Source of the DNA: Inhella crocodyli | Lineage (GTDB): Bacteria; Pseudomonadota; Gammaproteobacteria; Burkholderiales; Burkholderiaceae_C | Length of the DNA stretch: 64,000 nt | NCBI RefSeq assembly: GCF_004004565.1 | Contig: NZ_SACM01000001.1 | Span: forward strand, 496,001 to 560,000 | Direction: 5' to 3' | In this document: positions 9,205 to 13,809 of the stretch, piece by piece | How positions within the stretch are numbered: position 1 is the first letter of the stretch | Layout: each line of letters begins with the position of its first letter | Made by a program: the position numbers and the translations under genes | Notes under the pieces: generated by a model | What the model was told of the DNA's origin: nothing | Database searches by the model: none | Seen by the model: only the letters and a program-made list of their open reading frames with translations

Positions 9205-11001
9205 ATGGCCACCTCCGCAGCATCCGTGTCGTCCGACCGTCCCAAAGCCCAAAGCCCGCGCGCATTGCGGGGGCTCTTGCCCTTCCTGCGGCCCTACCGC
9301 GGCCGCATCGCCGTGGCGGGCGTGTTCCTGGTGCTGGCCGCCATCACCACCTTGCTGTTCCCCGCGGTGTTGGGCCGGCTCATCGATGCCGGCCTCGTGC
9401 CCAAGGACCGCAGCGAGCAGCTGATGGGCCTGCGCCACCACTTCGCGCTGCTGATGGGCGTGGGCGTGGCCATGGGCTTGCTGAGCGCCAGCCGCTACTA
9501 CATGGTGACCTGGCTGGGCGAGCGCATCACGGCCGACGTGCGCAGCGCCGTGTACGCCCGCGTCATCGGGCACAGCCCCGGCTTCTTCGAGACCACCCGC
9601 ACGGGCGAGGTGCTGAGCCGATTGACCACCGACACCACCCTGGTGCAAACGGTGGTGGGCTCCAGCTTGAGCATGGGCCTGCGCAACGCGCTGATGGCCG
9701 TGGGCGCGCTGGTGATGTTGATCGCCACCAACCCGGTGGTGATGGGCCAGGTGCTGGGCGTGCTGGCCCTGGTGCTGGCGCCCACGCTGATTTGGAGCCG
9801 CCGCGTGCGCAAACTGAGCCGCGACAGCCAAGACAAGGTGGCCGACGCCTCGGCCATCGCCGGCGAGGTGCTCAATGCCATCCCCGTGGTGCAAAGCTAC
9901 ACGCAGGAGGCGCGCGAAGCCCGACGCTTCACCGAGGCCAGCGAAGCGGCCTTCGACACCGCCAAACGCCGCGCCAAGGTGCGCGCGCTGCTCATCGCCT
10001 TCGTCATCGTGGCCAACTTCGCCGCCATGCTCTGGGGCCTGTACCAAGGCACGCAGGCGGTGCTGGCGGGTCGCATCAGCGCAGGGCACCTCGCACAAAC
10101 CGTGGTGTACGTGGTGCTGCTGCTGGGCAGCGTGGCCGTGCTGGCCGAGGTCTGGGGCGACCTGCTGCGCGCCGCCGGCGCCACCGAGCGCTTGGTGGAG
10201 CTGTTGGAAAGCCGCTCCCCCGTGACCGAGACCGCCACGCCACGCGCCTTGCCGCCGGCGGGCTCGGGCGCCACCTTGACGGTGCGCGGGCTGAACTTCC
10301 GCTACCCCTCGCGCCCCAACACCTTGGCCCTGGCCGACTTCGACCTCGACCTGGCCCCGGGCGAAACCGTGGCCCTGGTGGGCAGCAGTGGCGCAGGCAA
10401 GACCACGGTCTTCCAGCTGCTGCAGCGCTTCTACGAGGCGGAGTCGGGCCGGATCGAGCTCGACGGCCTGCCCATCGGCGAACTGAGCCTGAACGCGCTG
10501 CGCGGCCGCATCGGCTTCGTGCCGCAGGAGAGCACGCTGTTCAGCACCAACGCCCTGGAAAACATCCGCTACGGCCGCCCCGACGCCAGCGAGGCCGAGG
10601 TCATCGCCGCGGCCAAGGCGGCGCACGCGCACGACTTCATCACCGCGCTGCCCGAGGGCTACGCCACCTTCTTGGGCGAGCGCGGCGTGCGCCTCTCCGG
10701 CGGCCAGCGCCAGCGCATTGCCATCGCCCGCGCCATGCTGAAGAACCCGCCGCTGCTGCTGCTCGACGAGGCCACCAGCGCGCTGGACGCCGAAAGCGAG
10801 CGCCTGGTGCAACAGGCCTTGGACGCCGCGATGCGCGGCCGCAGCACCTTGGTGATCGCCCACCGCCTGGCCACCGTCCAGCACGCCGACCGCATCGTCG
10901 TGCTGGAACACGGCCGCGTGGTGGAGGTCGGCACGCACGCCGAGCTGGTGGCCCGAGGCGGGGCTTACGCGCAGCTGGCGGCGCTGCAGTTCACGGTGTG
11001 A
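9205..11001 (+). CDS. ABC exporter, fused membrane and ATPase domains (MsbA-like)
   Basis: 598 aa half-transporter. Six hydrophobic segments span about residues 30-320 (type IV exporter fold, beginning LLPFLRPYRGRIAVAGVFL). The nucleotide-binding domain follows: Walker A GSSGAGKTT near residue 395, signature LSGGQRQR near 501, Walker B LLLLDEATS, D-loop SALD and switch IAHR. The domain order and the RYPSRPN opening of the ATPase part are typical of lipid or multidrug exporters that work as homodimers. The substrate is not predictable; it stands alone, with a regulatory M56 gene converging 3 bases away. Confidence 0.93.
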   Translation: MATSAASVSSDRPKAQSPRALRGLLPFLRPYRGRIAVAGVFLVLAAITTLLFPAVLGRLIDAGLVPKDRSEQLMGLRHHFALLMGVGVAMGLLSASRYYMVTWLGERITADVRSAVYARVIGHSPGFFETTRTGEVLSRLTTDTTLVQTVVGSSLSMGLRNALMAVGALVMLIATNPVVMGQVLGVLALVLAPTLIWSRRVRKLSRDSQDKVADASAIAGEVLNAIPVVQSYTQEAREARRFTEASEAAFDTAKRRAKVRALLIAFVIVANFAAMLWGLYQGTQAVLAGRISAGHLAQTVVYVVLLLGSVAVLAEVWGDLLRAAGATERLVELLESRSPVTETATPRALPPAGSGATLTVRGLNFRYPSRPNTLALADFDLDLAPGETVALVGSSGAGKTTVFQLLQRFYEAESGRIELDGLPIGELSLNALRGRIGFVPQESTLFSTNALENIRYGRPDASEAEVIAAAKAAHAHDFITALPEGYATFLGERGVRLSGGQRQRIAIARAMLKNPPLLLLDEATSALDAESERLVQQALDAAMRGRSTLVIAHRLATVQHADRIVVLEHGRVVEVGTHAELVARGGAYAQLAALQFTV

Positions 11002-11004
11002 GGC

Positions 11005-12486
11005 TCAGGGCTTGAAGTGCAGCGCGGGCGCTTGCCCGGCCTCGATCTCGCGCTTCAACTCGGCCAGGGCGCCGGTGGTGTCGTGCAGGCGGGTCTGCAC
11101 GAAGCGGGGCAGCACCTCGATGCGCAGCATCTCGCCGCCCTCCTCGCCCCGTTCGATCATGGCCATCGTGCCGTCCTTCGTCACGATGCGCGGCTTGGCC
11201 AAGAGCGCACCGGTCTTCGCGTCCAACATCACGAACTCCAGCAGGATCAGGTCTTGGCCCTTCACGGCATCGCCGGTGTAGGGCCGTCCGCTGGCCAGCA
11301 GGCGAACGCCCGCGCCATCCTCGGCCGTGAAGGGGTAAGGACGCACCTCGTTGAAGGTCTGCAACAGCAGCATCGGCGGTAGGCGCTGACCGTTGACCGT
11401 CACCGCCACGTCCATGCGCAGCTTGCTGTACCCGACGGCTTCGGGTGCTGCGCTGTGTTTTTCAGCCATAGGTACTTCAGGTGCTGCAGGTGGCGCGGCA
11501 TGGACCACGGCCGGCGGCGCAGCAGGCACGGCATGCACCGCGGGAACGGCGGCAGGGCTCGGTGCCACGGGCGCGACCTTGGCGGCTTCCGCCATCGGCA
11601 GGGGGGGCACGGGCGGGGCCGGCTGGGGTTGCACGGCCAGGGCCACACCAGCCACAGAGGCCAGCAGCAAGGCGACCCAGCCTGGGCGGCGCGGGCGGTG
11701 AAGGTGGGCGGGCAGCATGGCGATCCTCTCAATCAAAGGGTGGGTGGCACAGGGCGACACGCTCAGCGGCGCGGGCCCCAGGTTCTGGGCGCGCAACAAG
11801 GCGGCGCGGTAGGTCGGCAGGGCCTGTGGGCGGCGGCGCAGCACCACGGCGTCGGCGGCCAGTTCCATGTCCTGACGCCAGCGGCGCATCGCCCACCAGG
11901 CCAACGGGTTGAACCACTGCAGCACCAGCAGCCCCAGCGCCAAGACGGTCCAGCGGGTATCGCCCCGCTCGGCGTGCACGCGCTCGTGCAGCAGCACCAG
12001 GCGCCGTTCGGCTGGCGCAAATCGGGCGCGGAAATCGGCGGGCAGGCGTACGCGCGGCCGCCAGGCGCCTTGCAGTGCAGCGCTGGCGCCGGCCGGCAAG
12101 GGGCGCTGCACGAAGCGGCGGTGTTGCACCGTCAGGACCAAGCACAGGGTCATGGCCCCCACGGCCCAGGTTCCGAGCAGCAGGGCCTGAACGCGGGGCG
12201 ATTGGGGGCCCTCCGCTTTCGGGCTGCCGCGCTGCGCCGCGGTGGGCAAGCCCAGCGGGGCCGACCACGCCGCCTCGGGCAGCTCCACCTGCCACACCAC
12301 GGGGGCCTGCGGCAGCGCGCGGGCCAAGCCGACGGCCAGCAGCAGCACGGGCACCAGGAACCACAGGGCGTAGCGGGCTTCGGCGCCGGCCCACCGGCCC
12401 AATGCCGGGCGCAGCAAGGCCACGGCGGTCACGCCCCCGCTCGTCAGAGCGGTGAGACCCCAAAACCAAGTCAGCGGCTCAGTCAT
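11005..12486 (-). CDS. M56 (BlaR1-like) membrane metallopeptidase
   Basis: 493 aa. N-terminal transmembrane helices (about residues 5-25, 38-55 and 100-120) are followed by a cytoplasmic gluzincin domain with HERVH (His167-His171). A fourth helix (WTVLALGLLVLQWFNPL) and the M56 segment RRWRQDMELAADAVVL, whose Glu is the likely third zinc ligand, come next. A further hydrophobic stretch and an Ala/Pro-rich linker (about residues 265-350) lead to a non-penicillin-binding C-terminal domain with a VTVNGQRLPP strand. In BlaR1 a periplasmic sensor binds beta-lactam; here that domain is different, so the signal is probably not a beta-lactam. The gene overlaps its BlaI-type partner by 8 bases. Confidence 0.85.
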   Translation of the reverse strand: MTEPLTWFWGLTALTSGGVTAVALLRPALGRWAGAEARYALWFLVPVLLLAVGLARALPQAPVVWQVELPEAAWSAPLGLPTAAQRGSPKAEGPQSPRVQALLLGTWAVGAMTLCLVLTVQHRRFVQRPLPAGASAALQGAWRPRVRLPADFRARFAPAERRLVLLHERVHAERGDTRWTVLALGLLVLQWFNPLAWWAMRRWRQDMELAADAVVLRRRPQALPTYRAALLRAQNLGPAPLSVSPCATHPLIERIAMLPAHLHRPRRPGWVALLLASVAGVALAVQPQPAPPVPPLPMAEAAKVAPVAPSPAAVPAVHAVPAAPPAVVHAAPPAAPEVPMAEKHSAAPEAVGYSKLRMDVAVTVNGQRLPPMLLLQTFNEVRPYPFTAEDGAGVRLLASGRPYTGDAVKGQDLILLEFVMLDAKTGALLAKPRIVTKDGTMAMIERGEEGGEMLRIEVLPRFVQTRLHDTTGALAELKREIEAGQAPALHFKP

Positions 12487-12850
12487 CGCCCTGCTCCTTC
12501 AAGATCTTGGCCAGGGCGGCGCGGTCTTCGGCGGTCAGCTTGCGCTGGCTCGAAAACTGCGCCACCAGCGGCGCCAACTGCCCGCCAAACAGGCGGTCCA
12601 GCAGGCTGCCCGATTGCTGCGCCACCCAGTCGGCGCGCTGCAACACCGGCCGGTACAAAAAGCGCCGGCCGTCTTTGTCGGCCGCCACGGCCTGTTTGGC
12701 CATCAGGCGGCCCAGCAAGGTTTTGATGGTGCTGAGCTGCCAATCGGGGGCGTCGGGCAAGCCAGCCAGGCGCGCCGCCACCTCGTCGGCCGACAGGGGC
12801 TGCTCGCGCCAAAGGATCTCCATCACCTGGGCTTCCGCGTCGCTGATCAT
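12479..12850 (-). CDS. BlaI/MecI-family transcriptional repressor
   Basis: 123 aa. Start ATG at 12850 gives [14 protein letters not shown], the standard opening of BlaI/MecI/CopY repressors; an upstream extension would run through the operator and was rejected. The winged-helix domain includes [29 protein letters not shown] and [10 protein letters not shown]; the C-terminal helices for dimerisation include [10 protein letters not shown]. In this family the membrane M56 partner triggers cleavage of the repressor. It overlaps the M56 gene by 8 bases and probably represses this operon from the dyad at 12852-12899. Confidence 0.92.
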
Positions 12851-12851
12851 G

Positions 12852-12899
12852 TTTCGACTACAACCGTAAACAGATGACCATTTACGCATGTAGTCGAAA
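12852..12899. promoter_or_regulatory. Nested dyad, putative BlaI-type operator
   Basis: Outer arms TTTCGACTACA (12852-12862) and TGTAGTCGAAA (12889-12899) are a perfect 11-bp inverted repeat. Inside it, CGTAAA (12865-12870) and TTTACG (12881-12886) form a second dyad with a 10-base spacer. The ACTACA/TGTAGT half-sites match the TACA...TGTA pattern of BlaI/MecI/CopY operators. The inner edge lies 1 base before the repressor ATG; thyA reads the other way. Confidence 0.75.
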
Positions 12900-12999
12900 G
12901 CACGGGCACCCAGGGAAACCCGAGCAGGATGCCACTCGACCAAGGCGCGCTGCACGCCCTGGTCCCTACACTTCCGGCCTGCTTTCGCCCTTGACGCCC

Positions 13000-13809
13000 A
13001 TGACTCGCCCCACTCGCAGCACCTTCGAAGACTTCATGCGCCACGTGCACACCACTGGCGTGCACAAGGGCGACCGCACCGGCACCGGCACCCGCTCGGT
13101 GTTCGGCTACCAAATGCGCTTCCCGCTGGACGAGGGCTTTCCGCTGGTCACCACCAAGAAGGTGCACTGGAAGAGCATCGTGCTGGAACTGCTGTGGTTC
13201 TTGCGCGGCGACAGCAACGTCAAGTGGCTGCAAGAGCGCGGCTGCACCATCTGGGACGAGTGGGCACGCGAAGACGGCGAGTTGGGCCCCGTGTACGGCG
13301 TGCAGTGGCGCAGCTGGCCCACGCCGGGCGGCGGCCACATCGACCAGATCAGCGACCTGATCCACCAGATCAAGACCAACCCCGACAGCCGCCGTCTGAT
13401 CGTCAGCGCCTGGAACGTCGCCGAGTTGCCGCAGATGGCCCTGATGCCCTGCCACGCGCTGTTCCAGTTCTACGTGGCCGACGGCAAGCTCAGCTGCCAG
13501 CTTTACCAGCGCAGTGCCGACATCTTCTTGGGCGTGCCCTTCAACATCGCCAGCTACGCGCTGCTGACCCACATGCTGGCCCAGCAGTGCGACCTGGCGG
13601 TGGGCGACTTCATCTGGACCGGCGGCGACTGCCACCTCTACAGCAACCACACCGAGCAGGTCGAGACCCAGCTGGCCCGCACGCCCTACCCCTTCCCCAC
13701 GCTGCGCATCAAGCGCCGCCCCGCCAGCCTGTTCGACTACGAGCTCGACGACTTCGAGTTGGTGGACTACCAGCACCACCCCTTGATCAAGGCGCCGGTG
13801 GCGGTGTGA
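13000..13809 (+). CDS. thyA: Thymidylate synthase ThyA
   Basis: 269 aa. Start chosen at ATG 13000 ([16 protein letters not shown]); the longer upstream frame would cross the BlaI operator. The family blocks are all present: [32 protein letters not shown] and the catalytic [13 protein letters not shown] with Cys151. [23 protein letters not shown] and GDCHLYSNH follow. ThyA methylates dUMP to dTMP with methylene-tetrahydrofolate, leaving dihydrofolate. The adjacent folA gene, 7 bases downstream, recycles that product, so the pair forms a classic functional operon. Confidence 0.98.

Follow-up and report, generated by a model that had tools for sequence, protein, structure and literature searches.

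The blaI-M56 gene pair described here is best read as a self-contained switch of the BlaI/BlaR1 type, combining autoregulation through a double operator, a BlaR1-type protease and a secretin-like periplasmic sensor, with thyA as a chance neighbour; we give this reading a probability of about 70%. The double operator is a known arrangement, and the BlaR1-type protease with a secretin-like sensor is the new part. Well-studied BlaI/M56 pairs sense beta-lactams, and a related staphylococcal two-gene switch turns on penicillin resistance. If the secretin-like end is true, the same proteolytic switch would have been given a new part similar to an outer-membrane pore, secretin or outer-membrane assembly would become a concrete guess for the signal, and the role of a set of so far unexplained BlaI/M56 pairs would become testable.

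The features of the locus are collected in Table 1. The window (the whole 64-kb stretch of DNA that was analysed) lies in a host genome of 3.76 Mb, and an Inhella metagenome-assembled genome (Burkholderiales) was the closest named relative in the M56 search. On the minus strand blaI comes first and is followed by the M56 gene, and a single PF03965 (BlaI) protein and a single M56 protein in the genome exceed the curated cut-offs. Homologue searches found BlaI/M56 pairs across several bacterial groups. The convergent ABC exporter is outside the blaI-M56 system.

Table 1. Features of the blaI-M56 locus and its surroundings, in window coordinates
Feature	Position	Strand	Match or remark
Whole inverted repeat, two sites in mirror order	12852..12899	.	
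blaI-proximal operator site GACTACAACCGTAAAC, GACTAC-N4-GTAAAC	12856..12871	+	exact match to RNYKACANNYGTMRNY
blaI-distal operator site GACTACATGCGTAAAT, GACTAC-N4-GTAAAT	12880..12895	-	exact match to RNYKACANNYGTMRNY
blaI-like repressor, 123 aa	12479..12850	-	PF03965, 114.6 bits (cut-off 22.6)
M56 anti-repressor protease, 493 aa	11005..12486	-	PF05569, 139 bits
Secretin-like C-terminal domain of the M56 protein, residues about 351-482	11041..11436	-	
thyA, divergent neighbour	13000..13809	+	PF00303
folA	start 13817		divergent from blaI, like thyA
ABC exporter, convergent neighbour	9205..11001	+	
Phosphofructokinase, 404 aa	16586-17800	-	PF00365; presumably of the pyrophosphate-dependent type

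The initial annotation had described the region before the repressor as a nested BlaI-type operator. The inverted repeat itself is real: perfect outer arms of 11 bp (12852-12862 and 12889-12899) and inner arms of 6 bp (12865-12870 and 12881-12886) are seen in the sequence, and a repeat search joins both dyads into 19-nt arms that are 89% (17/19) complementary with 10 nt between them. One base separates the repeat from the repressor ATG, whose first base is 12850. The 64-kb window holds no second inverted repeat of this quality (19-base arms with 17 or more pairs and a loop of up to 30), and among 30 first-order Markov shuffles of its sequence, 2 contained any such repeat. Each ACTAC half-site forms, with an inner half-site, a pair at the 4-base spacing of BlaI/CopY operators, and the region is better read as two adjacent operators of that type, 24 bp apart from centre to centre, than as nested dyads; the dyads look nested because two ordinary operators stand in mirror order. 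What stands of the earlier description is thus a BlaI-type operator upstream of a BlaI/M56 pair, and what falls is the nesting. A special four-way structure was likewise rejected, as pairing inside each site follows the ordinary 4-base spacing and some relatives (e.g., L005, L006, and L034) carry their sites in the same orientation, with the nested symmetry lost and the two operators kept.

By sequence match, both sites fit the TACA-NN-YGTA core operator of the BlaI/MecI/CopY family through RNYKACANNYGTMRNY. The proximal site is the genome's sole zero-mismatch match to the stricter pattern GWYTACNNNNGTARWC, from which the distal site deviates by one mismatch. RNYKACANNYGTMRNY was proposed for CopR/CopY repressors in a report whose abstract also prints a T form, RNYKACANNTGTMRNY (PMC7253601); according to the same report, many genera have two operators, with one operator suggested to block the -35 element and its partner the polymerase (PMC7253601). 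The window shares with these cop boxes the match to RNYKACANNYGTMRNY and the doubled operator before an operon, but neither window site matches the T form, and CopY answers copper through Cys-X-Cys motifs. For Clostridium thermocellum, another report describes two BlaI proteins for which four protomers have ordered sites, arranged as two inverted-repeat pairs, upstream of the blaI operon, the regulon of BlaI_1845 being one operon with blaI and blaR1 and the BlaI_0696 operon containing two blaR1 genes (PMC8457756). The four-protomer sites before blaI and the one-operon regulon are likenesses to the window, whereas the half-sites of C. thermocellum are GTCTAT/GACTAT and a beta-lactam response is assumed by the authors of that report. 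Because CopY and BlaI are both known to use double operators and the layout recurs in related loci, the operator is an ordinary one.

That the repeat exceeds chance is argued more strongly by its conservation than by its rarity in shuffles. At least two sites of the pattern R..TAC-N4-GTA..Y lie upstream of blaI in 25 of 30 selected loci, as against 1 of 9000 base-shuffled regions, and their spacing in the paired loci is 23-26 bp; with the exact wider CopR/CopY consensus, two sites are present in 15 of the 30 loci and in 0 of 9000 shuffled regions. The 30 loci were hand-picked from 82 in which the region upstream of blaI could be read; most are Burkholderiales with a strong BlaI match, joined by Dyella, Rhodanobacter, and one unclassified proteobacterium. 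Near-duplicates (L034/L073 and L008/L009) are included, and L048 has an uncertain blaI start. Two sites are missing by pattern in five of these loci, one site being found in L022 and none in L030, L031, L037, and L042; at least the last four show paired sites with different half-sites when inspected by eye. At least one consensus site is present in 25 of the remaining 52 loci, and two are present, at a spacing of 21-22 bp, in 17 (mostly Sphingomonadales, with three Verrucomicrobia loci).

L030 and L031 are second blaI loci in the genomes of L009 and L008, with the same paired layout by eye and with the half-sites GACAAC/GTTGAC instead of GATTAC/GTAAAC, which suggests two insulated BlaI systems in one cell.

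The related loci also indicate where the promoter would lie. In 16 of 25 loci, TTGAY occurs no more than 14 bases ahead of the distal site (114 of 10,000 shuffles), and in the same 16 loci TAATCA or TAAAC(A/T) at promoter spacing overlaps the distal site, giving a promoter-like -35/-10 pair. TTGAY is absent at this place from the window and eight other of the 25 loci, namely the other Inhella loci of the set (L032, L004, L003, and L033) and four more, and a consensus scan found no sigma-70 promoter at the window operator; we infer the position of the window promoter from the related loci. Inspected by eye, 12851-12900 shows no clear ribosome-binding site before the blaI ATG, the space being filled by the operator, and the blaI transcript may be leaderless or very short-leadered.

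On the evidence of genome-wide pattern searches, the BlaI/M56 pair appears to control its own operon only. The strict pattern GWYTACNNNNGTARWC occurs once in the host genome, at the operator; with one mismatch allowed it finds both sites and one further place (C10:270600), as against 6 places for the backwards control. RNYKACANNYGTMRNY finds 4 further places (5 match rows), as against 18 control matches. All five extra places lie inside long open frames, which is weak evidence in a GC-rich genome. A wider BlaI regulon was rejected, the extra matches in the genome being fewer than those of the control pattern. Across 12 genomes of the window's family that were chosen for holding an M56/BlaI pair and include the window's own, the strict pattern has 25 sites, of which 23 precede a blaI and 2 lie elsewhere; the backwards control pattern finds 10 places.

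The repressor belongs to the BlaI family (Table 1), and its matches to the narrower NCBIfam models CopY_TcrY, BlaI_of_BCL, MecI, and BlaI_of_MRSA are below their cut-offs. In a sequence alignment its Q98-F99 falls on MecI N101-F102, and N101-F102 is the bond at which BlaI is reported to be cut (PMC9834060). All 55 homologues have H or Q at position 98; at position 99, 30 have F, 22 have L, 2 have V, and 1 has M. By analogy with BlaR1/BlaI, cleavage of the repressor near Q98-F99 is inferred.

In the predicted model (AlphaFold2; mean pLDDT 80.6, pTM 0.59), the M56 protein consists of a helical membrane/M56 part (about residues 1-285) with an H167/H171/E208 zinc site, a proline-rich linker of low model confidence (about 290-350), and a C-terminal beta domain. 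The intact HERVH zinc site noticed from the sequence holds up, H167, E168, H171, and E208 being invariant in 34/34 M56 homologues; for BlaR1, H201, H205, and E242 are reported as the ligands of its HEXXH...E zinc site (PMC9834060). Residues 4-249 of the model align with S. aureus BlaR1 at Z 15.1 (220 residues, rmsd 5.5). The NCBIfam model blaR1_generic reaches 51.4 bits, as against a cut-off of 400, and over residues 136-218 only. The view that the C-terminal end is not penicillin-binding is supported as well: no penicillin-binding domain was recognised in the window protein by Pfam or NCBIfam, nor among the 13 Pfam families of the 34 homologues. The pair thus resembles BlaI/BlaR1 and MecI/MecR1 of Staphylococcus aureus and Bacillus licheniformis in its repressor family, its membrane M56 protease with HExxH...E, its organisation as a gene pair, its operator geometry, and the aligned place of the candidate scissile bond, but differs from them in having neither a recognised penicillin-binding sensor nor an adjoining target resistance gene, and in a sensor end that is a small secretin-like beta domain.

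Structure prediction of this end, which the initial annotation had proposed as a check, gives a separate beta domain of secretin-like appearance (pLDDT 88.9 and pTM 0.80 for the isolated domain folded with 20 sequences by AlphaFold2). Profiles, profile-profile alignment, and the predicted structure concur, each of them moderate alone, and together they point to a domain that is secretin-like but not a secretin, a label chosen because the matches to Pfam Secretin are below its cut-off. That model appears weakly in 4 of the 34 M56 proteins (best E 0.0026), and among isolated ends it gives E 1.1e-4 for L034, 0.002 for L012, and 0.19 for L047, none above cut-off; the best relative tested against PF00263 scores 22.3 bits (cut-off 27.5) and covers 30 of 169 positions (profile 6-35). 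The window domain has no Pfam match, so PF00263 is not assigned to it. STN (N0) and Secretin_N are absent by Pfam from the window protein and from the 13 families of the 34 M56 homologues, and in 16 real secretins taken for comparison they are present in 16/16 and 14/16, respectively. The window domain resembles the secretins PilQ/GspD/InvG (PF00263) in a PRxxTxxGxxAxIExG-like hairpin and in about 112 residues that, in the model, align with the protomer fold. It differs from them in being only about 130 residues long, in having no recognised STN or Secretin_N domain, and in being joined to a membrane protease. Among the matches listed in the open-licence literature (titles and starts of abstracts), no BlaR1-type/M56 protein with a secretin end is described.

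A profile of 20 such ends had PilQ (6w6m) as its best match among 177,635 PDB sequences (E 0.0024), with a designed immunoglobulin-like protein a close second (E 0.003). It has matches in 40 of the 399 genomes searched from the order, one of them being the window's own, where about 0.4 genomes would be expected by chance at that E-value. Of the 42 match rows, the 29 with loci L139-L167 were examined; the window itself accounts for one more (L138), and the 12 rows that lack a locus were left out, two of which overlap Pfam secretin matches. The secretin signature is shown by 27 of the 28 non-M56 loci fetched in this way (L152 was translated in the wrong frame), and all 16 of those submitted to Pfam are secretins. 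L139, a 556-aa M56 protein with a secretin-like end, comes from a different family of the order and was not part of the profile build. In hhalign, the ends align with the profile-found secretins at 95.8% (E 7.4e-9); among the controls (two reversed, 20 with shuffled columns) the highest value is 0.39%. Because the first secretin alignment came from the profile's own matches, the comparison was repeated with 30 secretin domains chosen by Pfam alone, which gave 91.9% for the ends, at most 1.45% for reversed controls, and 40.6% for the window domain alone. The Pfam search shows four secretins in the host genome itself.

In structural comparison by VIA-align, secretins take the first 11 rows for the isolated domain, with Z 7.4-8.7 over 106-123 residues and rmsd 3.8-4.9; they represent six different proteins, InvG appearing six times, and include secretins of type III and type II secretion systems and of a filamentous phage. 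The secretin PulD stands further down the list at Z 6.9. These values are to be read with caution, as Z below 8 may reflect a common beta arrangement and Z 7-9 can arise in this way. For the full model, five BlaR1 rows come first and are followed by secretins at ranks 6 to 19 (Z 9.1 to 7.6). Pseudomonas PilQ (6ve4) has Z 6.7 with the full model and is not among the matches listed for the isolated domain, which excludes nothing.

The secretin-like profile matches 23 of the 34 M56 homologues, of which 20 were used in the build and three (L011, L049, and L043) were held out. The M56 group varies its sensor end, because the other 11 carry ends of a different kind that the profile does not match. 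A TonB-like end in L031 and an STN-like end in L043 were impressions gained by eye and were dropped, Pfam having found neither. Some loci contain two or three tandem M56 genes with differing ends (L034 2905-5620, L073 2701-5403, L044 1-4278, L036, and L041), one end being secretin-like and the others having a 'WCL' region; in the 'WCL' end of L034, Peptidase_M56 was the sole Pfam match.

Whether the secretin likeness matters depends on what produced it, and we consider true kinship the probable cause. The main competitor, which is less likely though of real weight, is a generic beta sandwich that has converged on a secretin-like hairpin, so that the resemblance is meaningless and the locus is a BlaI/BlaR1 pair with an unspecified sensor. 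This reading agrees with the sequence similarity in hhalign being confined to at most 66 columns, with the sub-threshold Pfam Secretin scores, and with plain Foldseek, which finds nothing at E of 0.001 or below for either the full model or the isolated domain and by itself ranks C2 domains and unrelated beta proteins first. The VIA-align rows after the first 11 also speak for it, as the non-secretin CcsBA has Z 7.1, less than 1 Z away from the lower secretin rows, and designed beta proteins reach about 6. Convergence does not readily account, however, for a profile whose non-M56 catch is 27 secretins in 28 loci when some 0.4 genomes are expected by chance, for reversed and column-shuffled controls that stay at or below 1.5%, or for first 11 structural rows that are all secretins. 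An indirect response to beta-lactams or cell-wall damage, with the sensor end detecting muropeptides or peptidoglycan fragments, appears unlikely. It draws on the kinship to BlaI/BlaR1 and on B. licheniformis, where a peptidoglycan fragment is reported to act (PMC3305447), but the penicillin-binding domain was not found by Pfam or NCBIfam, the pair is flanked by thyA, folA, and an ABC exporter, and no further strict operator was found in the genome. More speculative still, and improbable in our judgement, is the idea of the M56 protein as a secretin mimic, in which a periplasmic domain of secretin-protomer descent would pair edge to edge with unassembled PilQ/GspD or with other stray outer-membrane beta-strands and, through direct BlaI proteolysis, report failed assembly of a secretion or pilus pore across the inner membrane, the induced M56 protein itself being the quality-control effector.

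In the preferred reading of a self-contained switch, one BlaI dimer would sit on each of the two adjacent 16-bp operators, as in BlaR1/BlaI. The distal site would occupy the usual -35/-10 position of the promoter and the proximal site would cover the region before the start codon, so that bound BlaI probably turns its own operon off, as position and conservation suggest. The M56 protein would be a BlaR1-like membrane zinc protease whose periplasmic sensor is a secretin-like beta domain and not a penicillin-binding domain. The signal, at a guess, would be periplasmic and probably an envelope protein or beta-strand ligand rather than a beta-lactam, and would activate the protease. By the precedent of BlaR1/BlaI, activated M56 would cut BlaI near Q98-F99 and thereby free the promoter. 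The output would be more M56 protease, as other good operators were not found in the genome, and perhaps, again as a guess, proteolysis of other targets.

The initial annotation had further suggested that the region may affect thyA, and this part does not survive comparison with related genomes. Control of thyA-folA by BlaI through the shared intergenic region is very improbable: in the window the operator does stand upstream of thyA, about 100-150 bp from its ATG, but thyA adjoins the blaI-M56 pair in only two of six Inhella genomes, and the operator is at most 300 bp from thyA in one of the six. L032, a syntenic relative probably identical with genome G588, has the order thyA-ccdB-ccdA-blaI-M56-ABC, and its operators keep their place at -45 and -21 from blaI, with ccdAB separating them from thyA; the conserved distance of the operator is that to blaI and not that to thyA. 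We therefore regard thyA as a chance neighbour of blaI-M56 and outside the system. The spot before thyA is variable among the six Inhella genomes (window 11001-13000, L032 1847-2413, and L202-L206), the gene or site directly next to thyA being a CcdB gene in four, the ABC exporter in one, and the blaI operator in one, and in L032 both ccdAB and blaI-M56 sit between thyA and the exporter.
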